A DNA stretch of 44,892 bases from Clostridia bacterium (GTDB lineage: Bacteria; Bacillota; DUOV01; Zhaonellaceae). Below, piece by piece: positions 12,661-39,589 of the stretch (its first letter is position 1; every line of letters begins with the position of its first letter). Below the pieces are notes generated by a model. That model was not told the DNA's origin, did not search any database, and saw only the letters and a list, made by a program, of their open reading frames with translations. The stretch is from contig DUOV01000209.1 in assembly GCA_012838615.1 (NCBI GenBank), forward strand, positions 1 to 44,892, in the 5' to 3' direction. The position numbers were made by a program, and so were the translations under genes.

Positions 12661-12947
12661 ATGAAATATGAACATATAAAAAAGGTTTTCCCAGGTGGCA
12701 ATACTTCCCAAGGTTTTTACTCATTTTATAATTACATACTAGGTCCCAACGCCAAAAGACTTTTTATTCTTAAGGGTGGGCCAGGTGTTGGAAAATCCAC
12801 TTTCATTAGACAAGTGGGTGAAACAATGATTGCTAAAGGGTACGATATTGAATATCATATTTGTTCCTCTGATAGCAATTCTCTTGATGGAATCGTTATA
12901 CCCACCTTGCAAATTGGTATTATTGATGGTACAGCACCCCACGTAGT
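12661..12947 (+). CDS. 5' part of an interrupted two-P-loop ATPase gene
   Basis: Encodes residues 1-95 of a 366-aa protein whose remainder is at 18482-19305. Strong ribosome site GGAGG before the ATG. The piece has Walker A GGPGVGKST at 39-47 and then GYDIEYHICSSDS and LQIGIIDGTAPHV. It resembles the uncharacterised Firmicute ATPase family annotated PRK06851 (recognised from memory). As the DNA stands, the frame runs past the junction into foreign sequence and stops at 13071, antisense to the end of ddh. Joined to the 3' part through the 10-bp core it continues in frame with no stop. Function unknown. Confidence 0.88.
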
Positions 12948-12957
12948 GAGTTCGTTA
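12938..12957 (+). other. Left attachment site of the element
   Basis: Core CCCACGTAGT (12938-12947) lies in codons 93-96 of the ATPase gene, followed inside the element by the recombinase arm GAGTTCGTTA. The likely central dinucleotide is CA at 12940-12941. Confidence 0.85.
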
Positions 12958-12983
12958 AACAAATTAATACCTTGTAATATTTA

Positions 12984-13967
12984 CTATAACAGACGTGCAC
13001 GCAAATCTTCATCTGACAGATTAGATAAATACGCAGGAGGAACGTCAAAAATAGTTTTGGCGCCATACTGACCTTGTTGATAAAGCCGATATACCGCGCG
13101 CGCATATGCCACAAGAACACTCGCTGTAAACTCGGGGTTGCTTTCTAGTTTTAAAGAATATTCAATGATATGATTATTTTGTTTTGTACGACCACTTCGA
13201 ATTACGAATCCCCCATGAGGAATTTTATTATGGTTAGTTCGCAGTTCATCTTCTGTTACAAAAATTACTTCTGTGTCATAATCAGCAAAGTAGTTAGGCA
13301 TTTTTTTAATTTCTTGCTCTATTTCATTTAGATCTGCTCCTTCCTGAGCAACAACAAAACATTGTCTATAATGCTTTTCTCTGGTTGAAAGTTTAGGATT
13401 TTCACCTCTCCTTACTGACTCAATTGCGTCCTCTATTGGAATAGTATATTGAACACCAGCCTTCACCCCTTTTACCCTACGAATTGCATCTGAATGACCT
13501 TGGCTCACACCTTTTCCCCAAAAAGTATAAGTTTCCCCTTCTGGTAGAATTGCTTCGGTCATCATACGATTAAGAGAAAAAAGCCCCGGGTCCCATCCAA
13601 CTGAAATTATACTAGTCTTCCTGGCTTTTTTAGCTGCCTTATCAAGCGCGGAAAAATATTCTGGGATTCTGGCATGGGTATCAAAGCTGTCAACTGTATT
13701 AAACATTTGAGCCAAATAAGGGCCTTGCTCCGGCAAATCTGTCATGGACCCTCCACAAAGGATCATCGTGTCAATAATACCTATATATTTTTCTACACGG
13801 TTATAATGCTCGACTATAGCCGACGAATTTTCTAGATTAATGAGATTTGGATCTCTTCTTGTAAAAACCGCCACCAACTCCATGTCCGGTTGATTAAGAA
13901 GTGCCGCTTCAACGCCTTTACCTAAATTACCGTACCCTACAATTCCAACTTTAATCACAGAATCCAT
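12984..13967 (-). CDS. ddh: meso-Diaminopimelate D-dehydrogenase
   Basis: 327 aa, full length. NADPH-dependent enzyme making meso-diaminopimelate directly from tetrahydrodipicolinate, for cell wall and lysine. N-terminal Rossmann motif VGIVGYGNLGKGVE; substrate-site segments CGGSMTDLPEQGPYLAQ, SVGWDPGLFSLNRMM and GVSQGHSDAIRRVKGV are as in characterised Ddh proteins. An AAGGAGG site precedes the ATG. It is cargo of the intervening element; its stop lies only 36 bp inside the left core and no terminator separates it from the junction, so its transcript probably runs antisense into the 5' part of the split gene. Confidence 0.95.
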   Translation of the reverse strand: MDSVIKVGIVGYGNLGKGVEAALLNQPDMELVAVFTRRDPNLINLENSSAIVEHYNRVEKYIGIIDTMILCGGSMTDLPEQGPYLAQMFNTVDSFDTHARIPEYFSALDKAAKKARKTSIISVGWDPGLFSLNRMMTEAILPEGETYTFWGKGVSQGHSDAIRRVKGVKAGVQYTIPIEDAIESVRRGENPKLSTREKHYRQCFVVAQEGADLNEIEQEIKKMPNYFADYDTEVIFVTEDELRTNHNKIPHGGFVIRSGRTKQNNHIIEYSLKLESNPEFTASVLVAYARAVYRLYQQGQYGAKTIFDVPPAYLSNLSDEDLRARLL

Positions 13968-14069
13968 GTGTACCTCCTTACTAGGTTATCATACCAGTTT
14001 AATTTATTATTTCGCTCTAAAAATAATTTTAAGCGATTAATCGTCTATGTTTTAAAAATAAAAAATTAT

Positions 14070-14168
14070 TAGAAAAACTTGGCTTGCTACAAGTTCTTTG
14101 GAAGAAGGCAAAAGCCTTAATTGCTATTAATTATAATCAGAAAGCTTATACTTTCTGATTTTATAAAA
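14070..14168. repeat. Hairpin repeat, copy B
   Basis: Related to copy A at 10684-10765, with the stem AATCAGAAAG/CTTTCTGATT at about 14136-14160. This copy is inside the intervening element, between trpP and ddh, while copy A is outside. Confidence 0.55.
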
Positions 14169-14192
14169 AAACGGCCAGCATTAGCTAGCCGT
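14164..14192 (-). terminator. Terminator after trpP
   Basis: On the minus strand the stem ACGGCTAGC/GCTGGCCGT with a 4-nt loop is followed by seven T. It begins a few bases after the trpP stop. Confidence 0.88.
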
Positions 14193-14199
14193 ATAATAC

Positions 14200-14718
14200 T
14201 TATTTTGCTATTGTGGTTTCAATTGTCTTCTTACTAAACACAACAACAGGATACAAAATTAATACCACGATAGCATTTGCTAGTGTTGCAGGAAGTACAA
14301 CCGTAGCAAATAAAAACTCGAAAGAAGCTGGTAGGCCAACAATAATCAAAGTGCATAGTAAAAAGACCGACCCGCTAATCAATGTTCCAACAATACCAAC
14401 TAACAAAGAGATAATTTTGGAATTTACTTTACCGCTTAAATATTTAATTAGGAAATATACTGCTATGGTTGTAATTAACTTATCAACTACGTTAGGAATT
14501 TGGCCTCCTGGCATAGAAGTAGTCAAAGCACTTAATAATCCTGCTAGAAAGCCAGCTAAAGCTGCTGTTTTAGAATTTTTATACATCATTAAAATTATAA
14601 ACAGCATACTTAGTAATAGATCAGGTTTTATTCCCCCACCGTACCCAGGAATAACTAGATGCAAAAGTGTTCCAATAGCTAATAACAACGCAATTTGAAT
14701 AGAATCTCTTAAACTCAT
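14200..14718 (-). CDS. trpP: Tryptophan transporter TrpP
   Basis: 172 aa, almost entirely hydrophobic with about five membrane segments. The N-terminal IALLLAIGTLLHLVIPGYGGG, then KPDLLLSMLFI, LSALTTSMPGGQIPNVVDK and GTLISGSVFL, closely follow Bacillus TrpP (YhaG), the tryptophan permease. The identification is supported independently by the leader: 11 GAG triplets spanning the ribosome site, as expected for control by the tryptophan-sensing protein TRAP. It is cargo of the intervening element. A thiamine- or biotin-type ECF component was considered, but the motifs and leader fit TrpP better. Confidence 0.9.
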   Translation of the reverse strand: MSLRDSIQIALLLAIGTLLHLVIPGYGGGIKPDLLLSMLFIILMMYKNSKTAALAGFLAGLLSALTTSMPGGQIPNVVDKLITTIAVYFLIKYLSGKVNSKIISLLVGIVGTLISGSVFLLCTLIIVGLPASFEFLFATVVLPATLANAIVVLILYPVVVFSKKTIETTIAK

Positions 14719-14789
14719 CTCATCTCACCTCATTAAAATGTTTACAACGTAGGGTTCTCAGCTCAGCTCAGCTCCTTTCCTCCTTTCTC
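14706..14789 (-). promoter_or_regulatory. TRAP-type binding site: 11 GAG triplets over the trpP start
   Basis: Reading the minus strand there are 11 GAG triplets. The upstream group lies at 14787-14789, 14780-14782, 14772-14774, 14767-14769, 14762-14764 and 14757-14759. The downstream group lies at 14729-14731, 14724-14726, 14719-14721, 14714-14716 and 14706-14708. Most are spaced exactly 5 nt apart (2-nt spacers), the spacing TRAP uses. The second group covers the Shine-Dalgarno sequence and start codon of trpP. TRAP has 11 subunits, each binding one triplet, so tryptophan-loaded TRAP should block translation. The 25-nt gap between groups is unusual. Confidence 0.88.
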
Positions 14790-14892
14790 AGAGATTCTTA
14801 CCACTACTTAAAAATATTATATTCGCAATTTTTCTTGTTTACAACAATAAAATTTATAAAATAAAATTTTATTAAGCAACAAAAAACCAACC

Positions 14893-16602
14893 TTATTTAT
14901 CCTGCAATTTGGCTTTTTGGATTTTTGCCCAGGTGTCTTTTAAGCCTACAATACGGTTGAAGATTAAATTATCTTCATCAGAATCTTTATCAAGGCAAAA
15001 GTAACCTTGTCTTAAAAATTGGAAACGCTCACCTGGTTTGGCATTTTTTAGAATTGGTTCTACTAAACAATTCCTCAAAACAGTAAGTGAATTAGGTGCT
15101 AAATTATCTAGAAAGCTTTGTCCTTCTTCAACGTCTTCCGGATCCTCTTTAATAAAAAGATTATCGTACAAACGAACTTCGGCTTTTAAAGCATGAGACG
15201 CAGATACCCAGTGTGAAGTACCCTTAACCTTGCGCCCATCTGTTGACCATCCACCTTTAGTCTCTGGATCATAAGTGCAATGAATTTCCACTATTTCCCC
15301 AGTTTCCTCGTCTTTTATTACATCAACACATTTAATATAATAGGCGTGTTGCAAACGAACTTCTTTTCCAGGTGAAAGGCGATGAAAATTCTTGGGAGGA
15401 CTTTCTTGAAAATCCTCTCTTTCAATATATACTACTTTTGAAAAAGGTACTTTTCTGGAACCTAATTCAGGTTTTTCTGGGTTTATGGTTGCATCTAACC
15501 ACTCTACTTGTCCTTCAGGATAGTTATCTATAACTACTTTTAAGGGTTTTAATACAGCCATTACTCTAGGTGCTTTTTTATTCAGATCTTCACGAATACA
15601 ATGTTCAAGCAAAGCAATATCTACCATGCTATTACTTTTAGCTACCCCGATACGTTCGCAAAAGTCTCTAATGGATTCAGGAGTGTACCCTCTTCTTCTA
15701 AGTCCCGATATAGTTGGCATTCTAGGATCATCCCAACCAGCTACATGACCATTTTCGACTAATTCGCGGAGTTTACGCTTACTCATTACTGTGTAGCTTA
15801 AATTGAGCCGGGCAAACTCAATCTGAGTCGAATGACAATCAACTTGTAAGGTATCTAAAAACCAATCATATAGCGGCCTATGATCTTCAAATTCAAGAGT
15901 ACAGATTGAGTGAGTTATTCCCTCAAGAGCGTCAGATAACGGATGGGCAAAGTCATACATAGGGTAAATACACCAAGTGTCACCGGTTCTATGATGTATA
16001 CTCCTTTGGATACGGTAAATGATTGGATCACGCATATTAAGGTTTGGGGAAGCCATATCAATTCTTGCCCGAAGAGTTCGGGAACCGTCCGGAAACTCTC
16101 CGTTTTTCATTCTCTGAAACAAATCCAAATTTTCCTCTACCGAGCGATTTCGATAGGGACTTTCCTTGCCAGGTTCAGTCAATGTACCTCTATATTCCCT
16201 TACTTCCTCAGGGCTTAAGTCACAAACATAGGCCTTGCCTAATTCTATTAATTTAATAGCATACTGATAAAGTTCTTCAAAATAATCTGAAGCATAGTAT
16301 AATCTGTCTTCCCAATCGAAACCAAGCCACTTAACGTCTTCCATAATTGATTTAACATACTCTACATCTTCTTTGGTGGGATTTGTATCATCAAAACGTA
16401 GATTACATAAACCATTATAGGCTTTGGCAATACCAAAGTTTAAACAGATAGATTTAGCATGTCCAATATGTAAATAGCCATTGGGTTCAGGGGGAAAGCG
16501 AGTATGAACTCTATTACCGTATTTCCCGGTTTTTAAATCATCATTGATAATAGCTTCAATGAAATTTGACGGCGCTTTATCTACTTGACTTAAATTAGGC
16601 AA
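14893..16602 (-). CDS. glnS: Glutaminyl-tRNA synthetase
   Basis: 569 aa, close to the usual 550-570. Class I motifs: [15 protein letters not shown] near residue 38, and VMSKRKL (KMSKS equivalent). [35 protein letters not shown] and [10 protein letters not shown] are GlnS-specific; the C-terminal part is the GlnRS beta-barrel anticodon domain. I start it at the TTG at 16602: GAGGAGG lies 8 nt upstream and the protein then begins just before the conserved [10 protein letters not shown]. The frame is open further upstream, but that stretch does not look like GlnRS. Most Firmicutes make Gln-tRNA by the GatCAB route, so a GlnRS gene on a mobile element is notable. Confidence 0.96.
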
Positions 16603-16749
16603 CTTGTATACCTCCTCAATATTAACATCTCGAACATCATTCTTTAAATCATTATAAACTCTATATTTTTTTTGTAAAGTTTCACCTCCAAAAGACTGAA
16701 TAGGACAATTTAAGGCTTCATACTTATTCAATATGAAGGAGGTGAACTT
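16603..16749. promoter_or_regulatory. Divergent control region between glnS and the recombinase operon
   Basis: About 147 bp separate the divergent genes. It holds two oppositely oriented Shine-Dalgarno-like sequences forming an inverted repeat (TTCACCTCC at 16680-16688 and GGAGGTGAA at 16737-16745). The left one, on the glnS strand, has no ATG/GTG/TTG start at proper distance. Promoters must lie here but I cannot place them with confidence. Confidence 0.45.
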
Positions 16750-16860
16750 ATGGCAAAAAAGCTGACTAAGTACATTATAAATGAAAAGTACAAAGAAAAC
16801 GTACAACTAGAAGATATCATTAAAAAAATTGTTGAACAAATTATTTTTTCTTGTGAATAA
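16750..16860 (+). CDS. 36-aa protein preceding the recombinase
   Basis: Reads [20 protein letters not shown] then a helix-like [13 protein letters not shown] and the ending SCE. It has a strong GAAGGAGG site 7 nt before the ATG and ends 20 nt before the recombinase start, so the two are very likely co-transcribed. I recognise no family. Position and size suggest a small accessory or directionality protein, but that is only inference from context. Confidence 0.65.
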
Positions 16861-16880
16861 CTTACATACGAGGTGTGTTT

Positions 16881-18467
16881 ATGAAATCAGAAGCAGCTTT
16901 TAGTAGAGTAACACCTCAAGTAGCAATATATGTACGACTCAGCGATGAAGATAAAAATAAAACTGATAATCTAGGAAATAGCGAAAGTATAAAAAATCAG
17001 ATTGCCCTGGCAACTAAATACGCTAACGAAAAAAAGTGGGTAATCCATGATATTTACATTGATGATGATTGGTCAGGGTTAGACAGAGACAGACCTGAAT
17101 TTAACCGCCTGCTTAAAGATTGTGAAGCAAGAAAAATTGATATTGTACTCTGTAAGGACATGAGCCGATTTACGCGCGATAAAATAGTCACCGAAGAATA
17201 TTTAGAAACTAAATTTGTTGAATGGGGTATCCGTTTTATTGGTTTAAGCGACGGTGTTGATACTTCAGATAAAGCGAACAAGAAATCAAGAGAAATCAAC
17301 GCTCTCGTGAACCAATGGTACGCCGAGGATATTTCAATTAAAGTTAAAGATACACTTAAAATAAAACGTGAAACAGGAAATTTTATCGGCAGCTTTCCGC
17401 CATACGGCTATAAAAAATCAGCTCATAACAAAAATAAACTTGAGATTGATGAAGTTGCTGCCAAAACAGTTCGCATGATTTTCCAACTATATTTAGAGGG
17501 CTATGGGACAACTGCCATAGCAAAAATATTAAATGCAAAACAAATACCAAATCCTTGTACTTACAAAGAACTTACCATACAAAATTACAAGAACCCTTTT
17601 AAAAAAAAATCTACCAGCGTTTGGAATAAAACCTCCGTGAAGAGAATTTTACGAAATGAAGTATATTTAGGGATACTTCAGCAACACAAGTCTGAAAAAA
17701 TTCATTTCAAAAGTAAAAAAAGAAAACAAGTACCTAAAAAATATTGGACAGTAGTGAAAAATACTCATCCACCCATTATTGATAAAGCTACCTTTTTTAC
17801 TGTGCAGAAATTAATGGATACAAAAATTCGTAGTTCAGGTTATGGAAAAGCCCATATCTTTGCCGGTAAAGTTTTCTGTAAAGATTGCAAAAGTCCACTT
17901 ACAAAGTCTTCTTCCGGCAAATATTCATATTTATCATGTGCACTTTATAATTCTTCCCACTTAAAATGTTCTAGACATAGTATTAGATTTGATAGATTAA
18001 TTCAAATAGTAGAAGACCGTCTTAGGCGTCATTTACTAATACTAACACATAAAACCGATGACTTAGTACAAGAGGTATTGGAAAAGGGTAAATTAAAAAA
18101 GGAAGAACAAAACTACCAAGTTTTAAAGAAAAACATAATAAAAAGAATTAACGACTTGAATAATGGACTTAAATACCTTTACATTGACAAAGCTAATAAA
18201 ACAATTGAAGAAGTTGTGTGGCAAGATATTTTTGAACAATTTACAAATGAGAAAAAAATTTTAATTCAAGAACTTAAACGTTTAAATACCGAGGAAAAGG
18301 ATACCAGTCAAATTAATATTAAAGTGTGTAAAAAAGCAGTTAATGATATACTCCAAGTTTCCCCTTTAAATCGTACCTTGATTAATAATTTAATTGATTT
18401 TATCGAAGTTGGTGAAGTTGAAAATGGTAAGCAGGAGATAATTATCAGTTATACTTTTTGTAATTAA
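16881..18467 (+). CDS. Large serine recombinase of the intervening element
   Basis: 528 aa. The resolvase domain (about 14-160) begins AIYVRLSDED with catalytic Ser21 and contains CKDMSRFTRD, the conserved Arg-containing helix. The Recombinase domain spans about 165-300 (GSFPPYGYKK, LRNEVYLG). A zinc ribbon has Cys333, Cys336, Cys353 and Cys363, followed by a Lys/Glu-rich coiled coil (about 395-480). It resembles the TndX/TnpX type of clostridial enzymes. I chose the ATG at 16881, 7 nt after GAGG. It should carry out site-specific exchange between the two 10-bp cores; its gene ends right beside the right attachment site. Confidence 0.95.
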   Translation: MKSEAAFSRVTPQVAIYVRLSDEDKNKTDNLGNSESIKNQIALATKYANEKKWVIHDIYIDDDWSGLDRDRPEFNRLLKDCEARKIDIVLCKDMSRFTRDKIVTEEYLETKFVEWGIRFIGLSDGVDTSDKANKKSREINALVNQWYAEDISIKVKDTLKIKRETGNFIGSFPPYGYKKSAHNKNKLEIDEVAAKTVRMIFQLYLEGYGTTAIAKILNAKQIPNPCTYKELTIQNYKNPFKKKSTSVWNKTSVKRILRNEVYLGILQQHKSEKIHFKSKKRKQVPKKYWTVVKNTHPPIIDKATFFTVQKLMDTKIRSSGYGKAHIFAGKVFCKDCKSPLTKSSSGKYSYLSCALYNSSHLKCSRHSIRFDRLIQIVEDRLRRHLLILTHKTDDLVQEVLEKGKLKKEEQNYQVLKKNIIKRINDLNNGLKYLYIDKANKTIEEVVWQDIFEQFTNEKKILIQELKRLNTEEKDTSQINIKVCKKAVNDILQVSPLNRTLINNLIDFIEVGEVENGKQEIIISYTFCN

Positions 18468-18491
18468 TAAGGAACTCGTTACCCACGTAGT
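18468..18491 (+). other. Right attachment site of the element
   Basis: Inside arm TAAGGAACTC (18468-18477), 4-nt spacer, then core CCCACGTAGT (18482-18491) joined to the 3' part of the ATPase gene. The arm starts one base after the recombinase stop codon. Confidence 0.85.
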
Positions 18492-19305
18492 TGACCCTAA
18501 AATCCCCGGGGCAGTAGACGAGATTGTTAATTTAGGAGCTTTTTGGAATGAAGACAAAATTGTTGAAAAAAAACAAGATATTATCCGAATTTCAAGAGAA
18601 GTAAGTAGATGCTTTCGTAGGGCATACGGATATTTAGCACAAGCAAAATTATTAAATGAAGAAATTGAAAGCTATTATTTAGATAGTTTTGCCCTTGACT
18701 TCGAACAACTCAATAAACAAGCAATTCAACTTATTAACAAAATATTCAGTAAAGTGGCCCAAATTAAGCCCATGGCTTATGAAAGGCATTTGTTTGGTTC
18801 AGCAATAACACCAAATGGATTTGTTAATTATCTAGATACAATATTCGGCAATTTAGAAAAAAGGTATATTATTACAGGAAATGAGGGTACAGGCAAATCT
18901 ACCCTTCTGGAAAAAGTTTTCCGAACTGCAACAAATCTTGGTTATGATGTAGAAGTATACCATTGTGCTTTAATACCTAATAAAATCGAACATCTTCTAA
19001 TTCCAGAGCTTAAGGTTGGAGTGATTACAAGTATAAACGCACATTACTATGAAAAATCTAAAGATGACGTAGTAATCGATACCTCTGAGTATCTAGATTT
19101 CAGGGCTTTAGAAAGATTTAAAGACGATATGAAAGAAGCCAGTAATAGATATACTTCTGCCTTAGAACGCGGGATTTCTTATATTGCACGAGCTAAATCT
19201 GCCCATGATGAATTGGAAAGCTATTATGCACCAAATATGGACTTTAACCAAATAAAATTATATTCCAAGCAGATTATGGAACGTATCCTCAGTTACGTTA
19301 ATTGA
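18482..19305 (+). CDS. 3' part of the interrupted two-P-loop ATPase gene
   Basis: Encodes residues 96-366 of the split protein. The frame entering through the core reads VVDPKIPGAVDEIVNLGAFW and stays open to the stop at 19303-19305. A helical stretch is followed by a second P-loop, GNEGTGKST, at about 225-233. The segment from 191 to about 285 repeats the N-terminal half: GYDVEVYHCALIP and IPELKVGVITSINAHYY mirror GYDIEYHICSSDS and IPTLQIGIIDGTAPHVV. It has no proper start of its own; the GTG at 18754 lacks a ribosome site, so it is probably silent unless the element is removed. Confidence 0.88.
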
Positions 19306-19383: not shown

Positions 19384-19659
19384 ATGCCCACAAAATCATT
19401 ATTAAATACAAGCGGCTCCTACGAAGTAATAACTAATAAAACTGAAAACTCTATTGAACTAACATTAATACTTGACAAGTCTTGGGCCAAACAACTAGGA
19501 CTACCGAATAATAAATTTGTTATTAATGAACCAAATACTAATGATGACCAGCATGAACGCCAACTGGAAGAAAAACTATGGGCTACCATCAGCGAAACTG
19601 CTCAACCTGTTAAGATTACAGATTACTACTACCCTGAAGAAGCTTTTAAAAATAATTAG
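19384..19659 (+). CDS. Hypothetical 91-aa protein
   Basis: A real gene by its AAGGAGG site 10 nt before the ATG and a terminator at its end. The product is hydrophilic with an acidic, Asn/Glu-rich second half (NEPNTNDDQHERQLEEKLW) and ends KITDYYYPEEAFKNN. No signal peptide, membrane segment or known motif is visible. It follows the split ATPase gene by 78 bp on the same strand and might share its transcript. Confidence 0.65.
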   Translation: MPTKSLLNTSGSYEVITNKTENSIELTLILDKSWAKQLGLPNNKFVINEPNTNDDQHERQLEEKLWATISETAQPVKITDYYYPEEAFKNN

Positions 19660-26516: not shown

Positions 26517-27446
26517 TTATAAGACTATCTTAGTACCAGTTTCACCCTTAACAGCTTCTCCTAGGTTAGAAAGTGCAGCAATAATCGCTTCGCCACCTGA
26601 TTTTACAAAGCTTAAGGTAGCTTGTACTTTAGGTCCCATACTGCCTTTGCCAAATTGACCTTCGTTCAAATATTTTTCTGCTTCTTGAAGGCTCAGCTCT
26701 TTCAAATTTTTTTGATCCGGTTTACCATAGTTAATTGCCACATACGGTACATCAGTTGCGATAATAAGCATATCGGCACCTAATTGTTTAGCTAGGAGAC
26801 TGGATGCTAAATCCTTATCGATAACGGCCTCAACACCTACTAAGCGCTCAGCTTCTTTAACAACCGGTATTCCCCCACCGCCACCAGCAATTACTATTGC
26901 ACCAGCATCAACTAACGTTTTTATCAAGTTTAGCTCAACTATTTCTTGAGGTTTAGGCGAAGGTACTACCTTTCTCCAGCCCCTGCCACTATCTTCTATC
27001 CAACTTTCTCCTTTGGCCATACCTGCTTCAGCTTCTTCCTTGGTGTAAAAAGCACCGACAGGTTTTGTGGGATTCTGAAAAGCGGGATCTTCTTTGGACA
27101 CTACTACTTGAGTTAACAAGGTAACAACATCTTTCTTAATGCCTAAAGTTTGTAATTCGTTATAAATGCTTTGCTGAATCATATAACCTATTAAGCCCTG
27201 GCTTTCTGCTCCACATACATCCAATGGCATAGCAGGCACCTGATCTCTGGCTGCCGCGTTTTGGAGTAGAATATTACCAACTTGTGGTCCATTACCATGG
27301 GCAATTACAACCCTATACCCTTCTTGTATTAGTTTCACGATACTCTTGGCACTCATTTCAACATTATAACGCTGCTCCTCTATAGTACCTTTTTGCTTTG
27401 GTTGTAAAATTGCATTCCCACCTAGGGCTACTACGACTGTCTTCAC
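26517..27446 (-). CDS. arcC: Carbamate kinase
   Basis: 309 aa. Makes ATP and carbamate from carbamoyl phosphate and ADP in catabolism. Family motifs: VVALGGNAILQPKQKGT, VIAHGNGPQVGNILLQNAA, AGGGGIPV and VIDKDLASSLLAKQLGAD, FGKGSMGPKVQA. GTG start 7 nt after AGGAGG. Last gene of the ygeY-ygeW-ygfK-arcC run, equivalent to yqeA in the E. coli cluster, where the carbamoyl phosphate would come from the YgeW-type carbamoyltransferase. Confidence 0.96.
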   Translation of the reverse strand: MKTVVVALGGNAILQPKQKGTIEEQRYNVEMSAKSIVKLIQEGYRVVIAHGNGPQVGNILLQNAAARDQVPAMPLDVCGAESQGLIGYMIQQSIYNELQTLGIKKDVVTLLTQVVVSKEDPAFQNPTKPVGAFYTKEEAEAGMAKGESWIEDSGRGWRKVVPSPKPQEIVELNLIKTLVDAGAIVIAGGGGGIPVVKEAERLVGVEAVIDKDLASSLLAKQLGADMLIIATDVPYVAINYGKPDQKNLKELSLQEAEKYLNEGQFGKGSMGPKVQATLSFVKSGGEAIIAALSNLGEAVKGETGTKIVL

Positions 27447-27470
27447 AGCTTTGCCTCCTGTTGCATTGAT

Positions 27471-30400
27471 TTAGAATAAATATGAATAATTTTTATAGAC
27501 GGTCCAAATCATGTTTAAAATAGCTGGTTCAATTTCAGATGATGTTGTACCATCTGGTTGGAACCTAACTTTTTCAACTTTGCCGTCCACTCGGACCAAG
27601 AATTCAGGATTATCTCCGTCTTTAACCAATAAGAATCCTGAATTGTCGCTGTCGTTAAAGTCTTCTTCGTTCCAGAACAAAGTTAATTTCTCTTTATATG
27701 GTGCACCTTCATGAGGGCAAAAGATAGCACAGTTTCCGCATTCATTACACATACCATCTATGTGTAATATTTGGTTTCTGTTCTTTAAGACGCCTTCAAC
27801 TTTAATCATCACATTAGCTCGGTTGGGGCATACCTCACTACAAATATTGCATACTTTATTACATTCTAAACATCTTTCACTTTCTGCATCTTCTGATTCA
27901 AATCCTCGTAAGATGCCTCTTCTGGATACAATTTCATTATGCTGTTTTTCTTTTTCAAACAGATCTAAAGTATACTTATATCTTGAGAACTTTTCTTTGT
28001 CGATAATCGCTTCAGATGCTTTAGACGCATGAGCAATGGCCTCAACTACGGTAGAAGGTCCAAACAAAGCATCTCCACCAATGAATACATTTTCTAAATT
28101 CGTCTCAAAGGTATCTGGATTTATGGAAATTGTACCCTTATCATCTACTTGAATGCCATTACGTCTTAACACATCATGGTCTACTTTTTCACCAATAGCC
28201 ATTAATACTGTATCTACTTCTAGTTCCTCAAATTCGCCTTCTTTAACAACTGGCTTTCTACGTCCTGAAGCATCAGCTTCACCAAGCTCCAACACCTGGC
28301 ATGTTAACTTACCTTCTTTTAAGGATACTGGGGTGAGTAGTTCTTTAAAAATGACACCATCTTCCAAAGCTAACTTTAACTCTTCTTGATCAGCAGGCAT
28401 AAATTCCCTGGTACGACGGTAAACAATATAAACCTTTTCTACACCTTTAACTCTTTTCGCAGCTCGTGCTGCATCCATTGCCGAGTTTCCGCCACCGATA
28501 ACAGCAACATTTTTACCTAAATCTATATTTTCGCTATTTTCATTGTAACTTTCTAAGAAACTTAAAGCCCCTAAAACTTTATCCCTATCGCCTTCAATAT
28601 CAAAAGCACTTGTTTTGCCTGCACCAATAGCTATATAAATATACTTAAAGCCTTCTTCTTTGAGTTTATTTACATCAAAATCTTCCTTAATACCTAATGC
28701 AAACTTAACTCCCATTGATTTAATAAGTTCAACGTCGTTTTTAATGGCTTCCCTGGCTATTCTAAAGTTAGGTATTACATATTCAACTGTTCCACCGGCT
28801 CTTTTTCTTTTATCAAATATTGTGACGTCAAACCCTGCCCTGGCTAAGAAATAACCTGCAGCAAGGCCCGAAGGTCCTGCTCCAATAACAGCTACCTTAC
28901 TTCCCCCAGCTTTTCTGTTTTCTTTGGCTATTTTTTCCATAAAAGCCTTATAACCTTTTTCAGCAGCAACTCTCTTCATTTCCCGAATCAATACGGATTC
29001 ATCGTAATCATGTCTAGTACATTTAGTCATACAATTATGATTACAAATGGTACCGGTAATAAAGGGTAGTGGATTTTTAGAAATAATTACTTCATAAGCT
29101 TCATTGTAACGTCCTTCATTAACTAATCTGATATATTCTGGAATATCTTGTCCAATTGGACAACCAACAGTACAAGGGGCTTTAAAACAATCAAGAAGAG
29201 GTAATTTCTGGCTTATCTTGCGACTTTTTACCTTTCTCTTTTCTTTAAGGTGATTAACATCACTTACTGAGCTTTCCGCTAACGCTTTAAGCTTATCTAA
29301 ATCAATACGATCTGATTCAAGGTTATCTAACTCTGGTTCTAAAATCTCCACCATTTGCTTTAAGCGATAATAACCACCAGGTTTTAAAATTGTAGTTGCA
29401 ACAGTTATAGGACGGATTCCTGTTGCAAAAATGCGAGAAACATTGAAAGCGTCTGCTCCGCCAGAATAGGAAATTTTAAGGTCTCCGTTAAATTCCGCTG
29501 CTAATTTATAAGCAAGGTTGATGGTAAGTGGATATAAGGAACGTCCTGACATATACATTTCTTCGCCAGGTAACTCGCCTTGAGTTATTTTTACCGGAAG
29601 GGTATTAGAAAGTTTTACGCCGAAAAATACATTATGTTCTTTGGCAAAAGCTTTTAACCTATGCAGCATTGCAACTCCGTCGTTATACTGTAAATCATGG
29701 GTAAAAGATTCTTCCTTTAAACTGATATAATTATATCCCATCTTGTCAAAAGTTTTTCTGACAAAATCATAACCTAAGAGAGTAGGATTCATTTTAACAA
29801 AAGTATTTAATTTCTTTTCTGAAATTAAATATTTGCTAATGGCTTCTATTTCTTCAGGAGGACAACCGTGCATAGTGGAAAGGGTAATGGAATTACAAAT
29901 ATAAGGAGAAATACTGTCAATATACGCTTCGTCTACATTTTTAAACCTATGGACTTCTTCTTTTAGAACCCTAACACATTCTTTAAAAATGTCAGTATCA
30001 GAAGCATCTTTCATCCCTTCAATAAAAGCATCAACTTTAGGGCTTTGAATTCCTTTCAAATCATAACCAACACTCATATTAAACATGAAAGTTCTTTTTT
30101 CTTGATTAAACAGTTCTTTCTGGAGAAAATGAACCATAAACCAAGCTTTAATATACTCTACTAAAGCACCTTGAATTGAAAGCTCAGTTGACCATTCCGT
30201 ATTATAACATTCATCATCAGCTCGAATACAAGGTTTAGGAAACTCCAATTCATCTAATATTTGGACAGTTTTTAGTTCAAAAAACCTACTACCTACCAGA
30301 TATGCAGCCACTATGTTTTGAGCAAGCTGGGTGTTGGGTCCTGCTGCAGGGCCTAAAGGCGAATCTAATGTTTCACCAAAAAGCTTTATATATGCATCGT

Positions 30401-30518
30401 TTTCTTTATGGTAAAACTTACTTTTTGGTATTCCAAAAATCTCTTGCTCATTGTTTAATTCCTCTAGCACCCAATTGAGTAACTTTTTAAAAGATATGCT
30501 TCGCATCTTATCGCTCAT
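27471..30518 (-). CDS. ygfK: YgfK-like Fe-S flavoprotein (putative selenate reductase family)
   Basis: 1015 aa, near the usual length. The first third resembles a dihydroorotate-dehydrogenase-like flavin barrel (GPAAGPNTQLAQNIVAAYL). The middle is GltD-like: a CTVGCPIGQDIPEYI Fe-S segment, FAD site VIGAGPSGLAAGYFLARAG, and NAD(P) site VIGGGNSAMDAARAAKRV. The C-terminus has two 4Fe-4S clusters, CNICSEVCPNRAN and CNECGNCAIFCPHEG. The selenate reductase label is historical; clusters of this type are now linked to anaerobic purine or urate breakdown (recalled knowledge), where YgfK would be a reductase. It is 24 bp before arcC. Confidence 0.93.
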   Translation of the reverse strand: MSDKMRSISFKKLLNWVLEELNNEQEIFGIPKSKFYHKENDAYIKLFGETLDSPLGPAAGPNTQLAQNIVAAYLVGSRFFELKTVQILDELEFPKPCIRADDECYNTEWSTELSIQGALVEYIKAWFMVHFLQKELFNQEKRTFMFNMSVGYDLKGIQSPKVDAFIEGMKDASDTDIFKECVRVLKEEVHRFKNVDEAYIDSISPYICNSITLSTMHGCPPEEIEAISKYLISEKKLNTFVKMNPTLLGYDFVRKTFDKMGYNYISLKEESFTHDLQYNDGVAMLHRLKAFAKEHNVFFGVKLSNTLPVKITQGELPGEEMYMSGRSLYPLTINLAYKLAAEFNGDLKISYSGGADAFNVSRIFATGIRPITVATTILKPGGYYRLKQMVEILEPELDNLESDRIDLDKLKALAESSVSDVNHLKEKRKVKSRKISQKLPLLDCFKAPCTVGCPIGQDIPEYIRLVNEGRYNEAYEVIISKNPLPFITGTICNHNCMTKCTRHDYDESVLIREMKRVAAEKGYKAFMEKIAKENRKAGGSKVAVIGAGPSGLAAGYFLARAGFDVTIFDKRKRAGGTVEYVIPNFRIAREAIKNDVELIKSMGVKFALGIKEDFDVNKLKEEGFKYIYIAIGAGKTSAFDIEGDRDKVLGALSFLESYNENSENIDLGKNVAVIGGGNSAMDAARAAKRVKGVEKVYIVYRRTREFMPADQEELKLALEDGVIFKELLTPVSLKEGKLTCQVLELGEADASGRRKPVVKEGEFEELEVDTVLMAIGEKVDHDVLRRNGIQVDDKGTISINPDTFETNLENVFIGGDALFGPSTVVEAIAHASKASEAIIDKEKFSRYKYTLDLFEKEKQHNEIVSRRGILRGFESEDAESERCLECNKVCNICSEVCPNRANVMIKVEGVLKNRNQILHIDGMCNECGNCAIFCPHEGAPYKEKLTLFWNEEDFNDSDNSGFLLVKDGDNPEFLVRVDGKVEKVRFQPDGTTSSEIEPAILNMIWTVYKNYSYLF

Positions 30519-30564
30519 CTTTTTTCCTCCCTATAGTAAGCAACAGTAACAAAAGTTATGAAGA

Positions 30565-30608
30565 ATGAGGCAAAGACAAACTTGAATTAAGTATTGGCTT
30601 TGCCTCAT
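30565..30608 (-). other. Intercistronic hairpin between ygeW and ygfK
   Basis: 11-bp perfect stem ATGAGGCAAAG/CTTTGCCTCAT with a 22-nt loop in the 126-bp gap. No long T-run follows, so it may be an RNA-processing or stability element rather than a terminator. Confidence 0.6.
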
Positions 30609-30644
30609 ATAATTTAAAAGAAAATTTATTATGTTATATCAATA

Positions 30645-31631
30645 CTAAGATCTACCACCCATAGTCAAGGTCATTACTGCTTTTGCGGTATGAAGTCTGT
30701 TTTCAGCTTCATCATAAACAACAGAGTGTGGTCCATCAATTACAGAATCTTCTACTTCGTTTCTTCTATCAGCGGGTAGAGCGTGCATGTAAATGCTATT
30801 TTTCGAAGTTAGACTCATCAATTCCTCAGTACATTTCCAGTGTTTATTAGCTTCTAAAAGATCATCTACTACTGCATCACTCGGGTTAGTTACCCAACTG
30901 CCCCAATTCTTTGGAATAACTACGTCTGCATCTCTATAAGCTTCTTCTTGGTCATGAGTAATCCTAAATGTTCCACCGTTTTCTTCTGCATTTTTCTTAG
31001 CCTGCTCAATTGCCCAATCCGGTAGTTCATAGCCCTTTGGATAAGCTAAGGTTACATCCATAGCATATCTTGGGAATAAGAGTGCTTGGCTTAAGGGAAC
31101 GGAAATTGGCTTCTTATGACTGGTTGCGTAAGCCCAAATGATTGATACTTTGACACGCTCTGTTCTTTTGAATTTTTCTTGAATAGTCATCAAGTCCGCT
31201 ATGCCCTGTAAGGGGTGATACAAATCACACTGCATATTAATAACAGGAACTCTTGACCACTTTGCCATTTCTCTTATGTATTTATTACCTTGCTCCCAGA
31301 AGCAGTTTCGGCAGGCGATAGCGTGACCAAAACTGGAAAGAATAATGGCTGTGTCTTTTGCTGACTCGCCGTGAGCAATTTGCATGTTACTGGTATCTAA
31401 GAAATGAGCGTGACCACCTAATTGAGTGATACCGGCCTCCATGGAGTTTCTAGTTCTGGTTGATTGTTCGAAGAACATTAAAAATACTGTTTCATCTTGT
31501 AAATAAGGTGTACGTTGTCTCATGGCAAATTTCTTTTTTAGATCAAAAGATACATCTAGTAAAGTATCAATTTCCTCTTTAGTCCACTCTTGTAAGGTAA
31601 TAAAATGCTTTCCCCTAAAAGATGTTTGCAT
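30645..31631 (-). CDS. ygeW: YgeW-type carbamoyltransferase
   Basis: About 328 aa of the aspartate/ornithine carbamoyltransferase superfamily. The carbamoyl-phosphate loop appears as FEQSTRTRNSME, followed by HGESAKDTAIILSSFGHAIACR and the HPLQGIADLMTIQEKF block; HALPADRRNEVEDSV is the late motif. The missing ornithine-type signature and the neighbours ygeY, ygfK and arcC point to the YgeW group, whose acceptor is not ornithine or aspartate. It likely works in reverse, phosphorolysing a ureido compound to carbamoyl phosphate for arcC. The ATG at 31631 follows GGAG; a GTG three codons upstream overlaps that site. Confidence 0.92.
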   Translation of the reverse strand: MQTSFRGKHFITLQEWTKEEIDTLLDVSFDLKKKFAMRQRTPYLQDETVFLMFFEQSTRTRNSMEAGITQLGGHAHFLDTSNMQIAHGESAKDTAIILSSFGHAIACRNCFWEQGNKYIREMAKWSRVPVINMQCDLYHPLQGIADLMTIQEKFKRTERVKVSIIWAYATSHKKPISVPLSQALLFPRYAMDVTLAYPKGYELPDWAIEQAKKNAEENGGTFRITHDQEEAYRDADVVIPKNWGSWVTNPSDAVVDDLLEANKHWKCTEELMSLTSKNSIYMHALPADRRNEVEDSVIDGPHSVVYDEAENRLHTAKAVMTLTMGGRS

Positions 31632-31682
31632 AATACACACTCCTTTTCTTTATTATTATTTATTATCTTATTTAAACACTAT

Positions 31683-32891
31683 TTATTTACTGGTTTCCAA
31701 ATACATCATTGGAATAGCCGCATACATTGCTGCTGCTTTGACTAAATGGCTCTTATATTGTTTTTCATTAGGAGCATGAGCTTCTTTCTCGTGTCCTGGG
31801 CCAAAACCTACTGTCGGAATATTATAACGTCCCATAATTGATACACCATTAGTTGAGAAAGTCCATTTATCTACTACAGGGTCTTCGTTAAACAAACCTT
31901 TATAAGCATTAACTAAAGCTTGGCACGCTGGATGGTCTTCCGGAATTACCCATGTTGGGAAATAACACTCTGTAGGATAAACCAGACCGGTATAAGAAGG
32001 CCGTTCATAAGAATACATACTAACCTTAGCGTTAGCAGCTTTAACTGATGGTAAATTTTTAATTTGCTGAATAGCTAGTTTATCGTCTTCGCCGTAAGTC
32101 AGTCTTCTATCAATGGAAATAGTACAACTGTCTGCAACTGCACAACGTGACGGAGAGGTGAAGAAAATTTCAGAAACTGTTAAGCTGCCTTTACCTAAGA
32201 AAGGATCGTCTTTTAGGTTTTCGTGTAAAGCTCTTAATTCCATTAAAATTGGAGCCATTTTAAAGATAGCATTGTCCCCTCTTTCAGGTGCAGAACCATG
32301 ACAACTTACACCTTTAACTTCAACTTTGATTTCCATTCTGCCTCTATGGCCACGATATATTTGACAAGAAGTTGGTTCGGTGCTGACCACAAATTCTGGC
32401 TTTAATTTATCTTCATTAATAATATATTGCCAGCATAAACCGTCACAATCTTCTTCCTGAACTGAACCTACAAATACAACTGTAAAATCCTTTGCTAAAT
32501 CTAGTTCTTTAATGATCTTGGCTGCGTAAACCATGGAAGCCATGCCACCTTGCTGGTCACTTCCACCTCTGCCCCAGATTACATCTCCTTCTTCTTTACC
32601 TTTATAAGGATCAACTTCCCATAAATCGATGTCACCAATTCCTACATTATCAATATGTGCATCAAAAGCAATTAATCTTGGACCATTTCCAATATAACCA
32701 AGAATATTCCCCATAGGGTCTATTTCAATTCTTTCAAATCCAACTTTTTCCATCTCTTCCTTGATTCGTAATACTATTTCTTTTTCCTGAGCACTTTCGC
32801 TTGGTATAGCAATCATATCCCGTAAAAACTTGGTCATTTCAGGCTTGTATTCTTCTGCCTTTGCTAAAATTTGTTTGAAATCCACACTCAT
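31683..32891 (-). CDS. ygeY: YgeY-type M20 metallohydrolase
   Basis: 402 aa of the M20/ArgE/DapE family. Metal and catalytic residues: [40 protein letters not shown] and [25 protein letters not shown]; the dimerisation domain then [16 protein letters not shown]. YgeY proteins are cluster-specific members, thought to open or deacylate an intermediate of the purine route. First gene of the ygeY-ygeW-ygfK-arcC run; a terminator-like leader just upstream suggests regulated readthrough. Confidence 0.92.
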
Positions 32892-32920
32892 TTTAAAATC
32901 CTCCTTATTTTTTTTAGTTT

Positions 32921-32985
32921 AAAAAAACCCAAAACACGTACTTCTAGAAGTACATAGTATTTACCAGGAGTACTGTATTTTGGGT
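32921..32985 (-). promoter_or_regulatory. Leader terminator/attenuator before ygeY
   Basis: On the minus strand, ACCCAAAA (32978-32985) pairs with TTTTGGGT (32927-32934) and seven T follow, only 29 nt before the ygeY start. The loop contains a perfect 16-bp palindrome, GTACTTCTAGAAGTAC (32938-32953), able to form an alternative hairpin. It either ends the gntR-zinc-ribbon transcript or acts as an attenuator for ygeY; no room is left for a promoter between it and ygeY. Confidence 0.7.
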
Positions 32986-33007
32986 CTTAATATAAACTTG
33001 TCTGACC

Positions 33008-33175
33008 CTAATATTCAACTAATCTTTTACATCTGGGGCATTTAATCTGCAACCCAACTGGTTTTCTGTAAGCTTTAAAAAGTACTTGCCCGCACTCGCA
33101 GCGGTATGGATGTTTACTTCCCGCATTCACCGTTTCTTGATAATTCTTTTCTACTTTAAATGCAGGTAAACTCAA
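33008..33175 (-). CDS. Com-like zinc-ribbon protein, 55 aa
   Basis: Begins MSLPAFKVEKNYQETVNAGS and then shows a four-Cys ribbon: YRCECGQVLFKA and IKCPRCKRLVEY. The pattern resembles the phage Mu Com family of small zinc-binding regulators. TTG start with GAGGTG 7 nt upstream. It lies 20 bp after the GntR gene on the same strand, so the two are probably co-transcribed. A role in regulation or RNA binding is suggested by the family and position only. Confidence 0.8.
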   Translation of the reverse strand: MSLPAFKVEKNYQETVNAGSKHPYRCECGQVLFKAYRKPVGLQIKCPRCKRLVEY

Positions 33176-33195
33176 AAACTATCACCTCACATGAG

Positions 33196-33927
33196 TTATT
33201 GTCGAACCAATGTAAACTGATACTTGTCACTACGGAAATACTGTCGACCATAATTTACAGGGTTACTGTTTTCGTCATACATCACACCTTCCATTTTAAT
33301 TAAAGGCGTTCTGCGATTAACCTGTAGAAGCTTGTCAACAGGGTCCTTTGCGAGTACTGCGGTCACATTTGAAACGTAATTGTAAGGTTTAATGTTAATA
33401 TATGTTTTTAAGTAATCTACCATACATTCTACATTTTTCCGTAATTGTAAATCTCCGATATCTTTTATTAACCAATAAGGTAAGATATCATAGCAATAAA
33501 TTACAGGGATTCCATCAGCGTAACGCAAAGATTCAATTACATAGCATTTGCTATTTGGTTCAGCATTTAATTTTTCAGCAATAGAAGGCGATATGGTAGT
33601 CTCGTAAGTGCTTAGAACTTTATCTTGAGCTTCAAAACCTGCTCTTCGTATGGTAGATACTAAACTTTCTAATTTCTCGATTCCAGCTATTACTTTGGCC
33701 GGTGTTTCTACGAAAGAACCAATACCATGTTTACGCGATATCTTTCCTTCCTTTTCCAAAATCCCCAAAGCTTCCCTTAACGTTCCCCTGCTTACGCCAA
33801 ATTCATTAGCCAATTCAGGTTCCGAAGGCAATTGAGCGCCGGAGGGATAAATGCCTACAACAATTCTCCTTTTTATTTCATTAGCTATTTCAATATAAAG
33901 AGGCTGTCTAACTTGAAAAACCCCCAA
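33196..33927 (-). CDS. GntR-family regulator with UTRA effector domain
   Basis: About 243 aa. N-terminal winged helix (PLYIEIANEIKRRIVVGIYPSG, then LANEFGVSRGTLREALGILEKEGKI) and a C-terminal UTRA ligand domain (YVIESLRYADGIPVIYCYDILP, then YFRSDKYQFTLVRQ). The TTG at 33927 has GGGGTG 6 nt upstream; a GTG at 33936 overlaps that site. Four copies of a 19-bp motif, two in front of this gene and one before each xanthine-dehydrogenase operon, are the best candidates for its operators. It is likely the local repressor, with a purine or breakdown product as effector. Confidence 0.9.
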   Translation of the reverse strand: MGVFQVRQPLYIEIANEIKRRIVVGIYPSGAQLPSEPELANEFGVSRGTLREALGILEKEGKISRKHGIGSFVETPAKVIAGIEKLESLVSTIRRAGFEAQDKVLSTYETTISPSIAEKLNAEPNSKCYVIESLRYADGIPVIYCYDILPYWLIKDIGDLQLRKNVECMVDYLKTYINIKPYNYVSNVTAVLAKDPVDKLLQVNRRTPLIKMEGVMYDENSNPVNYGRQYFRSDKYQFTLVRQ

Positions 33928-33981
33928 TAGCTTCACCCCGCTTTTTTTATGCTACCGTATTATTTGTCGATTATTAGCCGC

Positions 33982-34000
33982 ACGTCTAGATGTCAAACAA
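33982..34000. promoter_or_regulatory. Candidate GntR operator 1 (gntR promoter)
   Basis: ACGTCTAGATGTCAAACAA, overlapping a minus-strand TTGACA-type -35 sequence with a TAATCG-type -10 about 17 nt later. Direct copy of operator 2, 62 bp away. Confidence 0.6.
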
Positions 34001-34005
34001 CGTCC

Positions 34006-34042
34006 ACTTTATGTAAAGGGGTTATAAACCCCTTTACATAAA
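34006..34042 (-). other. Long perfect hairpin between ssnA and gntR
   Basis: 15-bp perfect stem TTATGTAAAGGGGTT/AACCCCTTTACATAA with a 3-nt loop, placed between operators 1 and 2. It lies after ssnA and probably ends or protects that transcript, though no T-run follows. Confidence 0.7.
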
Positions 34043-34043
34043 T

Positions 34044-34062
34044 TTGTCTAGACATCAAACAA
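34044..34062. promoter_or_regulatory. Candidate GntR operator 2
   Basis: TTGTCTAGACATCAAACAA, sharing GTCTAGA..TCAAACAAC with operator 1 and the TTGT(C/A)TAGA core with the copies at 38145 and 42034. Confidence 0.6.
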
Positions 34063-34134
34063 CTACTATTAATTCTATTCGTTCTTTATTTAAATATTCC
34101 TGCAAATTTTATGAGTTTTTAGTAAAATGTTATA

Positions 34135-35463
34135 TTAAATCCTTTTCCAAACTCGGTCTGCTAATTCTCTACCTTTAGCCATAATTTCTCGTTCATCAAT
34201 ATCTACCAATCGCCTCTCTTCCATCACCACTTTTCCATTGATAATAGTAGTCTCTACTGAGCGCCCCATCATGCCAAAATGTATATGACTAGCAAGATTT
34301 TCGGATTGCATAGTGGTCCATGGTTCGTAATTTACAATAATAACATCAGCTAGTGCCCCTGGAACTAATCTTCCAACTGTTTTTTGAAAGAAGCTGGAAG
34401 CTATATTGGAATTATTCTCAAATAACATAGTAGGTGGCTCAACCCAAGACACACTTGGGTCTTTTTTGTTTAACTTATGCAGTATATTTGCAACTTTTAA
34501 AGACTCAAACATATCCGTAGTATAACCATCGGTTCCTAAACCTACCACAATACCCTTCTCCATCATATCTAGTACCGGAGCAACACCAACTGCATTACCC
34601 ATATTGGATTCAGGGTTGTGAATTACGTTGGAAGAAGTACTTTGAAGTAAATCAATTTCCTTGTCATTAACATGTACACAGTGAATCATAAGGGATTTTG
34701 GTCCTAAAATACCAAAATCAGCAAGACGTTCTACTACCCGTTTACCGTATTTTTGTAAACTGTCTTCCAGATCTTCCGTACCTTCCGCAGTATGCACATG
34801 GAATCCAACTCCAGTATCTGCATTGGCTTCACAACATTTTTCTAAAGTTTCGTTAGAAAGGGTTAACGAAGCATGCAAACCAAACATACCTTTTAACATG
34901 TCATCATTAGCTGAATTGCAATATTTTATGAACTCTATATTTTCTTCAATACCTTGCTTAGCAATTTCCTTACCGTCACGATCAGAAACTTCGTAACAAA
35001 GACTGCTGCGTAAACCGATTAGCTTAGCTGCTTCAGCGATTTTATTTAAACTTCCTCGAACAGCATATGGGCTTGCATGGTGATCGATGACTGTGGTTAC
35101 TCCATTTTTGACGCATTCAATCATAGGCACTAATGCGCTATAGTAAACATCTTCCAAGGTTAATACTTTATCAAGACGCCACCATAATCCTTCTAAAATA
35201 TCAGCAAACGTCTTTGCCGGAGGGCTGTCGGTAGACATTCCTCTGGCAAAAGTACTGTAATAATGCATATGAGTATTTATTAGGCCAGGCATTATTACCC
35301 GTCCTTGAGCATCAACAAAGCGAGCTTCCGGATATTTTGGTTTTAATTGGGCTGTTGGCCCTACTTCTTTAATTAAATTACCGTCAATTGCTACACATCC
35401 ATCTGAAAGATAGGGTTTTGCCGAATCCCAAGTTATTAATCTCCCGTTACCTACTAAAAGCAT
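34135..35463 (-). CDS. ssnA: SsnA-type amidohydrolase
   Basis: 442 aa, metal-dependent hydrolase of the guanine deaminase/TrzN superfamily. Metal ligands: NTHMHYYSTFARG, FGLHASLTLS with HVHTAEGTEDLED, MIHCVHVND, and LGTDGYTTDMFE. SsnA is the cluster companion of ygfK and is thought to hydrolyse a purine-derived ring. It begins 23 bp after the fused xanthine dehydrogenase gene and is co-transcribed with it. Confidence 0.92.
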   Translation of the reverse strand: MLLVGNGRLITWDSAKPYLSDGCVAIDGNLIKEVGPTAQLKPKYPEARFVDAQGRVIMPGLINTHMHYYSTFARGMSTDSPPAKTFADILEGLWWRLDKVLTLEDVYYSALVPMIECVKNGVTTVIDHHASPYAVRGSLNKIAEAAKLIGLRSSLCYEVSDRDGKEIAKQGIEENIEFIKYCNSANDDMLKGMFGLHASLTLSNETLEKCCEANADTGVGFHVHTAEGTEDLEDSLQKYGKRVVERLADFGILGPKSLMIHCVHVNDKEIDLLQSTSSNVIHNPESNMGNAVGVAPVLDMMEKGIVVGLGTDGYTTDMFESLKVANILHKLNKKDPSVSWVEPPTMLFENNSNIASSFFQKTVGRLVPGALADVIIVNYEPWTTMQSENLASHIHFGMMGRSVETTIINGKVVMEERRLVDIDEREIMAKGRELADRVWKRI

Positions 35464-35486
35464 TTATAAACACCTCGCAATAACTT

Positions 35487-38045: not shown

Positions 38046-38072
38046 GCTTTACCTCCTTCTAAATAATGTTTT

Positions 38073-38107
38073 AAAAAACCCCAAGCTAAAATTTTAGCGT
38101 TGGGGTT
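38073..38107 (-). promoter_or_regulatory. Leader terminator before the fused XDH gene
   Basis: Stem AACCCCAA/TTGGGGTT around a 14-bp palindrome GCTAAAATTTTAGC, with a T-run on the minus strand, 27 nt before the start codon. Upstream (38130-38137) AAAGGGTC could pair with the 5' arm and prevent termination. The same order is seen before xdhA. Confidence 0.75.
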
Positions 38108-38144
38108 CAAATTACATTTAAGATACTACGACCCTTTTTTGAAG

Positions 38145-38163
38145 TTGTCTAGATGTTCTACAA
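38145..38163. promoter_or_regulatory. Candidate GntR operator 3 (fused XDH operon)
   Basis: TTGTCTAGATGTTCTACAA, an imperfect dyad with TTGT/ACAA ends. A TCCTGCCACAAA box follows 35 bp further (38198-38209), as in the xdhA region. Confidence 0.65.
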
Positions 38164-38238
38164 TTTCTATTATAAATTCTCTAAACGCTATTTATATCCT
38201 GCCACAAACACTAAATGCATATATATTATTTATAATAG

Positions 38239-38700
38239 TTATTGGTTAAGAGCTTTTTCTACTGCCCTAAGGATATTTTGATATCCTGTGCAGCGACAAA
38301 AATGCCCTGATAACTCTCGTTTTATTTCTTCTTTAGTGTATTTTTTACCGCTTTCTACCATGGCAGTTGCTGTTAAGACTAGGCCTGGAGTGCAAAACCC
38401 GCATTGAATTGCTCCTTCATCTATAAAAGCTTGCTGAACTTTTGATAGTTCACCGTTTTTAGCAATTCCCTCAATTGTAGTTATATTTTTCCCATCAGCC
38501 CAAACTGCAAGATAAATACAAGAGTCTATTGGTGTGCCATCGATTAAAACAGTACAGGCTCCACATTCACCTACTCCACAACCTTTTTTAACACCTGTAT
38601 AAAACAATCGGTTTCTTAAAACTTCGAGAAGTGACTCTCTGACATCTATCTCTAAGTCATACTTTTTCCCATTTACGTTTAGGGTTATCTTTTTACGCAA
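38239..38700 (-). CDS. xdhC: Molybdenum hydroxylase 2Fe-2S subunit
   Basis: 153 aa. Two 2Fe-2S clusters: [16 protein letters not shown] near residue 40 and CGFCTPGL with [12 protein letters not shown] near 100-140. Small subunit of the three-part xanthine-dehydrogenase-type enzyme encoded here as Mo subunit, FAD subunit, Fe-S subunit. The TTG start follows GGAGGTG and overlaps the end of the FAD-subunit gene by 8 bp, implying translational coupling. Confidence 0.93.
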
Positions 38701-39574: not shown

Positions 39575-39589
39575 GGCTCACCCTCCCTT

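Follow-up and report, generated by a model that had tools for sequence, protein, structure and literature searches.

Why is a gene for an ATPase with two P-loops broken, inside a conserved motif, by DNA that carries its own recombinase, and is the gene ever made whole? The question arises in the window, i.e., the whole stretch of 44,892 nucleotides analysed here. In it, the 10-bp sequence CCCACGTAGT occurs at 12938-12947 and at 18482-18491 and nowhere else on either strand, and when 12661-12947 is joined to 18492-19305, a single frame of 366 codons without a stop results. The features on which the argument depends are, in order:

12661..12947, + strand: 5' part of the PRK06851 gene; first P-loop GGPGVGKST; its motif DGTAPH holds the crossover site
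12938..12947, + strand: left core CCCACGTAGT, attL; predicted crossover CA at 12940-12941, within a His codon
12948..12953, + strand: right arm GAGTTC of the attP dyad
12984..13967, - strand: diaminopimelate dehydrogenase (ddh), cargo; sole copy in the genome
14200..14718, - strand: TrpP-type (PF17099) membrane transporter, cargo
14893..16599, - strand: glutaminyl-tRNA synthetase (glnS), cargo; start set at an internal codon of a 637-codon ORF
16750..16860, + strand: 36-codon ORF immediately before the recombinase gene, with a strong ribosome-binding site; candidate for a partner or a recombination directionality factor (RDF)
16875..18467, + strand: large serine recombinase, 530 aa; Resolvase, Recombinase and zinc-ribbon domains
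18472..18477, + strand: left arm GAACTC of the attP dyad
18482..18491, + strand: right core CCCACGTAGT, attR; predicted crossover CA at 18484-18485
18492..19305, + strand: 3' part of the PRK06851 gene; second P-loop GNEGTGKST
19384..19659, + strand: 91-aa gene, also found downstream of the uninterrupted gene in the family relative G001

The joined 366-aa protein matches the PRK06851 ("dual-wield NTPase") model NF005320 nearly from end to end, with residues 5-365 of the query aligned to positions 4-361 of the 363 in the model (E 3e-106). Its score of 355 bits lies below the equivalog cut-off of 556, and therefore the protein is a relative in the PRK06851 family and not a member of the subfamily that NF005320 names. 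Both P-loops and the conserved Cys and His are present, at motif positions taken from PMC10949312. A second PRK06851 copy was sought in the window's genome, and the only matches were the two halves. Accordingly, two claims of the sequence-only reading, that the direct cores are identical and that joining gives one open frame, are borne out. That reading had also taken the divisibility of 5,544 by three as support; this is irrelevant because the element is removed, and what counts is that the halves meet in frame at the core. An initial search of named genomes, with the joined protein as query, gave no relative. In G001, an uninterrupted PRK06851 gene is followed by the same 91-aa gene and by an HTH-cupin gene, as in the window, which places the window's 3' half at its native locus. 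The 91-aa gene itself is 62% identical to its G001 counterpart and has only weak family matches.

The element comprises 5,544 bp and holds ddh, the TrpP-type gene, glnS, the 36-codon ORF and the recombinase, with no phage structural or replication genes among them; its GC and GC3 agree with those of the flanks and the host. The recombinase gene, with the three domains expected of a large serine recombinase, ends 14 bp before the right core, just as had been read from the letters. For the 36-codon ORF no family match was found. The glnS on the element is the only one detected in this 222-contig, 95%-complete draft genome. The two family relatives each have a single orthologue, 79% identical, at other places, so that the excisable element now carries a glnS of apparently vertical descent. 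When ddh was searched for in the same two relatives, it was found in neither. Outside the element, the window carries at 26517-41881 xanthine-dehydrogenase-type, carbamate kinase, carbamoyltransferase and amidohydrolase genes, which, by their translations, resemble anaerobic purine catabolism.

Where, then, do the strands cross? The attP of the window, rebuilt from the ends of the element, is an imperfect palindrome in which 14 of 26 positions are complementary (p 0.006), with CA the best of 16 centres. Such a palindrome is present in all nine elements that were reconstructed, and in each it centres best on precisely the CA within the conserved His codon; complementarity ranges from 14 to 20 of 26 positions, with p <= 0.0014 for each of the eight besides the window. 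The attB sites have no marked symmetry. In some elements of recombinase lineage A (defined below), e.g., that of G052, the two ends share little beyond the CA; therefore, the 10-bp repeat in the window is probably a 2-bp core lengthened by similarity between attP and attB. A search of the order's two other genomes for an exact 20-bp attL pattern gave no match.

The site is used well beyond this genome. Among 300 genomes of the phylum, 217 of which have a PRK06851 gene, about 11, from eight families, have that gene cut at the same His codon, always within DGTAPH/VVDP (G000, G003, G004, G030, G036, G052, G071, G161, G175 and G209, and probably G027, where the contig stops at the core). The architecture recurs in single-contig genomes such as G071. 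The inserts measure 5.1 to 28.4 kb, and their cargo varies widely. Their recombinases form at least four lineages that are only 20-46% identical between groups, which argues for repeated choice of the site. Within lineage A the recombinases are 90-96% identical, with hosts in different families; lineage B consists of those of G036 and G209, 54% identical to each other; the G003 recombinase is 46% identical to lineage A; and the window's recombinase is 20-27% identical to those of lineage A, lineage B and G003. Its nearest relative, at 48%, is in G360, where a PRK06851 5' half, cut at residue 96, lies 1.3 kb away. Since the same codon is cut in many genomes, and since the dyad at the circle junction is centred on the core, the split gene is more than chance.

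Carriers of lineage A recombinases also include Moorella stamsii, a Syntrophomonadaceae MAG and a Symbiobacterium MAG. At five of the six named loci, the recombinase gene is immediately followed by the PRK06851 3' half, and at the sixth the contig ends. Of these organisms, Moorella stamsii DSM 26217 (L093, NZ_PVXL01000072.1) is cultured, and there the recombinase stands directly before the 3' half. As for cargo, the element in the same codon of G209 (L047, G209:C20:86000-104500) has, by eye from the translations, apparent corrinoid/methyltransferase genes and not phage genes. The lineage A elements of G175 (L048), G071 (L051) and G098 (L052) share a gene pair of about 109 and 160 aa (MKVVSNSTPLIALARIKQ...); this pair resembles a PIN-type toxin-antitoxin system and could stabilise the element.

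Are the split genes still under constraint? In every split with an intact recombinase, both halves are open and in frame, and between G161 and G209, both split, dN/dS is 0.11, a value that partly reflects older divergence. Most of the sequence conservation could predate the insertion, since the genus offers no genome that lacks the element.

Uninterrupted genes, which the sequence-only reading had proposed to search for, were found, e.g., in G001 and, as a near-identical empty site, in G006. G006 has the intact gene, and G052, of the same genus, has 25.9 kb inserted at the core; their flanks show 99.1% identity across 18.8 kb to one side and 99.9% across 8.2 kb to the other. From the end of the left synteny to the core, a stretch that includes the 5' half, G006:C3 and G052:C1 (L119-L123) are only 78-90% identical, so this stretch has been exchanged in one or the other. 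The G052 recombinase is reduced to its last ~30 residues, and its 5' half has GVDKS for GVGKS, a Walker A change.

A different outcome is seen in G008, G098 and G231, in which no recombinase is detectable. In these genomes the promoter and 5' half are duplicated (380-455 bp), and the duplicate ends at the core to give an intact gene while the old 5' half remains (G008:C5:182542-192973, L041; G098:C1:1302931-1319613, L052; G231:C15, L053); G008 has three 5'-half remnants in a row. To judge from the arrangement, the intact gene that follows the extra copies looks like a split gene repaired by partial duplication. Taken together, the pattern of recombinase loss, in a handful of cases, is consistent with a gene that needs either excision or repair in order to function. 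Extra copies of promoter and 5' half that end at the crossover site are also present in G360, on C5, C12 and C79 (L097, L100, L059, L099). There, two contigs are identical over a 127-bp stretch that stops at the core, and we considered whether G360 is a mix of excised and unexcised DNA; this was rejected as proof of excision, since there is a second upstream context, which indicates duplication of the 5' half.

What would the restored gene do? CD3298, the C. difficile PRK06851 orthologue, belongs to the sigma-E regulon (PMC3789822), and its deletion gives spores almost without CaDPA, largely undetectable (PMC10449524). Likewise, PMC10949312 describes PRK06851 proteins as dual-wield NTPases with a role in CaDPA and with conserved Cys, Asp and His, including a putative catalytic His. 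In our 300 genomes, the PRK06851 gene and spoIVA are both present in 214 and both missing in 41, with 3 having only the former and 42 only the latter (Fisher p 1e-23, uncorrected for phylogeny); all 11 of the split genomes have spoIVA. In the window's genome, spoIVA, dpaB, a SASP gene and ytxC were all found, which supports the earlier claim of a sporulating host. SpoVAC was not cleanly found in this genome, the match being a SpoVAE-type gene beside a SpoVAD-like end at a contig start. By orthology and the literature, the window's PRK06851 gene is predicted to be a mother-cell sporulation gene. A scan for sigma-E-like promoters gave significant enrichment for the set of orthologue upstream regions; for the window's gene and recombinase, nothing was significant (GAATAGG-14-CATACTTA, p about 0.16-0.20). 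The sigma-E control and CaDPA role of CD3298 strengthen the case for a skin-like element beyond what had been argued from the window's letters.

We consider it likely that an element has integrated here, that its recombinase restores the gene by excision, and that this takes place, most likely, in the mother cell only. The element, lying between attL at 12938 and attR at 18482 in the DGTAPH/VVDP codons of the host's sole dual-wield NTPase gene, would be released by its own large serine recombinase, which would join attL to attR at the CA dinucleotide; a 5,544-bp circle would come out and the gene would be restored exactly. Since it is in the mother cell that the gene serves Ca-dipicolinate loading of the spore, excision would most likely be limited to that cell, which dies afterwards, and the spore would retain the element with its cargo. 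Integration in a mother-cell gene would be cheap, since the element leaves a cell that is by then bound to lyse, a logic accepted for skin, vfbin, gin and SPbeta (PMC6957869, PMC5595907). A directionality factor would be expected to exist; none was identified by homology in the window element. Nor did IMG/VR, searched with the attP circles of the window element and lineage A, as well as with the window's recombinase, give any match; a plasmid search matched solely glnS-like DNA from other bacteria, and the phage records held only recombinases of less than 60% identity. Of the skin-like switch first proposed for this locus, the architecture, the recombinase and the sporulating host are supported, while mother-cell excision is inferred, with no excised molecule, RDF or convincing sporulation promoter found for this element. 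Skin-like mother-cell excision is the best reading on our analysis, one in which we infer the excision, its timing and the directionality factor.

Can the locus be explained otherwise? The 222-contig draft might suggest an artefact of assembly or binning, to which we give almost no weight: a 10-bp repeat does not join contigs, element and flanks agree in base composition, the 3' flank is syntenic with that of the uninterrupted gene in G001, and single-contig genomes have the same architecture. It is also very improbable that the halves work as separate polypeptides with no need of excision. The unexcised 5' half does stay open for 136 codons, its frame continuing into the element to 13071, but the first in-frame ATG, GTG or TTG of the 3' frame is at 18754, past about 87 conserved codons, and so the 3' half is unreadable as a complete half unless it is joined. 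Moreover, the break falls inside the conserved DGTAPH/VVDP, adjoining a putatively catalytic His (PMC10949312).

A third explanation, which we regard as unlikely, is that of an ordinary mobile element, an integrative island or prophage remnant, for which the conserved coding site is simply attB; the gene would be inactivated, and excision would be rare and unrelated to sporulation. The near-identity of the lineage A recombinases across families, when the host 5' halves are just 60-65% identical to the query, indicates that these elements move horizontally, and since they do, integration at the site alone is no proof of a switch that serves the host. The wide variation in cargo, the state of G052, with its C-terminal recombinase remnant and altered Walker A motif, and the failure to find a sporulation promoter or RDF for the window element also agree with this explanation. 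Against it stand the open, in-frame halves of every split that has an intact recombinase, the low dN/dS of G161/G209 (with the older divergence it partly contains), and the rebuilding of the gene in three genomes that lack a recombinase, which suggests selection for its function. In addition, known elements in mother-cell genes act as switches (PMC6957869, PMC5595907).

To return to skin-like excision, the cargo invites a further thought. The pathway intermediate that ddh uses lies next to the dipicolinate branch point. It is distinctly improbable, albeit conceivable, that the locus is a two-way switch, in which excision in the mother cell would turn on the CaDPA NTPase and simultaneously remove the only glnS and ddh. 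An element with the only glnS would also act as a germ-line lock, since its loss would leave a growing cell unable to charge tRNA-Gln, provided that the cell has no GatCAB route. Carrying the only detected glnS would, in this manner, account for the retention of an excisable element.

Genes reported as targets of excision at sporulation include sigK, spoVFB, spoVR, spsM, gerE, kamA and yabG. PRK06851 is absent from this list, which was drawn from openly searchable papers, and to that extent it is a family not known as a target, as had been suggested; its splitting, however, is not unique to the window, given the roughly 11 cases in 300 genomes. In the same literature and in the accessible parts of PMC10949312 and PMC10449524, no mention was found of an interruption of a dual-wield NTPase, PRK06851 or CD3298 gene. 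From the sequence comparisons, elements excised at sporulation probably have in the PRK06851 gene a target not reported before: the kind of element is known, and the target gene, its breadth and the cargo are new, with priority not certain. If confirmed, this would add a further target gene, in which at least four recombinase lineages from across the phylum strike a single codon, and would tie a DNA rearrangement to spore Ca-dipicolinate loading. The loci that kept the recombinase, lost it, or rebuilt the gene are a natural experiment on how such elements persist, and the CA-centred attP sites define a set of serine integrases that share one natural target.

Among known systems, skin in sigK of B. 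subtilis and C. difficile is likewise a serine recombinase element in a mother-cell gene, with a short direct core and a frame restored by excision. The window's element differs in that its target is a CaDPA-related NTPase and not a sigma factor, in that it has no phage genes, and in that its excision is predicted from the DNA. The element vfbin also interrupts a dipicolinate-pathway gene that acts in the mother cell, spoVFB of B. weihenstephanensis; spoVFB makes DPA, whereas the target in the window is a putative accessory ATPase of CaDPA accumulation. Similarly, gin in gerE of B. cereus (PMC5595907) is a non-prophage intervening element with a serine recombinase and a 9-10 bp core, but it has 28.6 kb and three recombinases, against 5.5 kb, one recombinase, glnS, ddh and a TrpP-type gene here. 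Finally, yin in yabG of C. botulinum (PMC10747680) shares with the window's element a single recombinase, a sporulation gene as target and a clostridial host; yin is from one strain only, whereas at the PRK06851 site four recombinase lineages are represented, in hosts of at least eight families.
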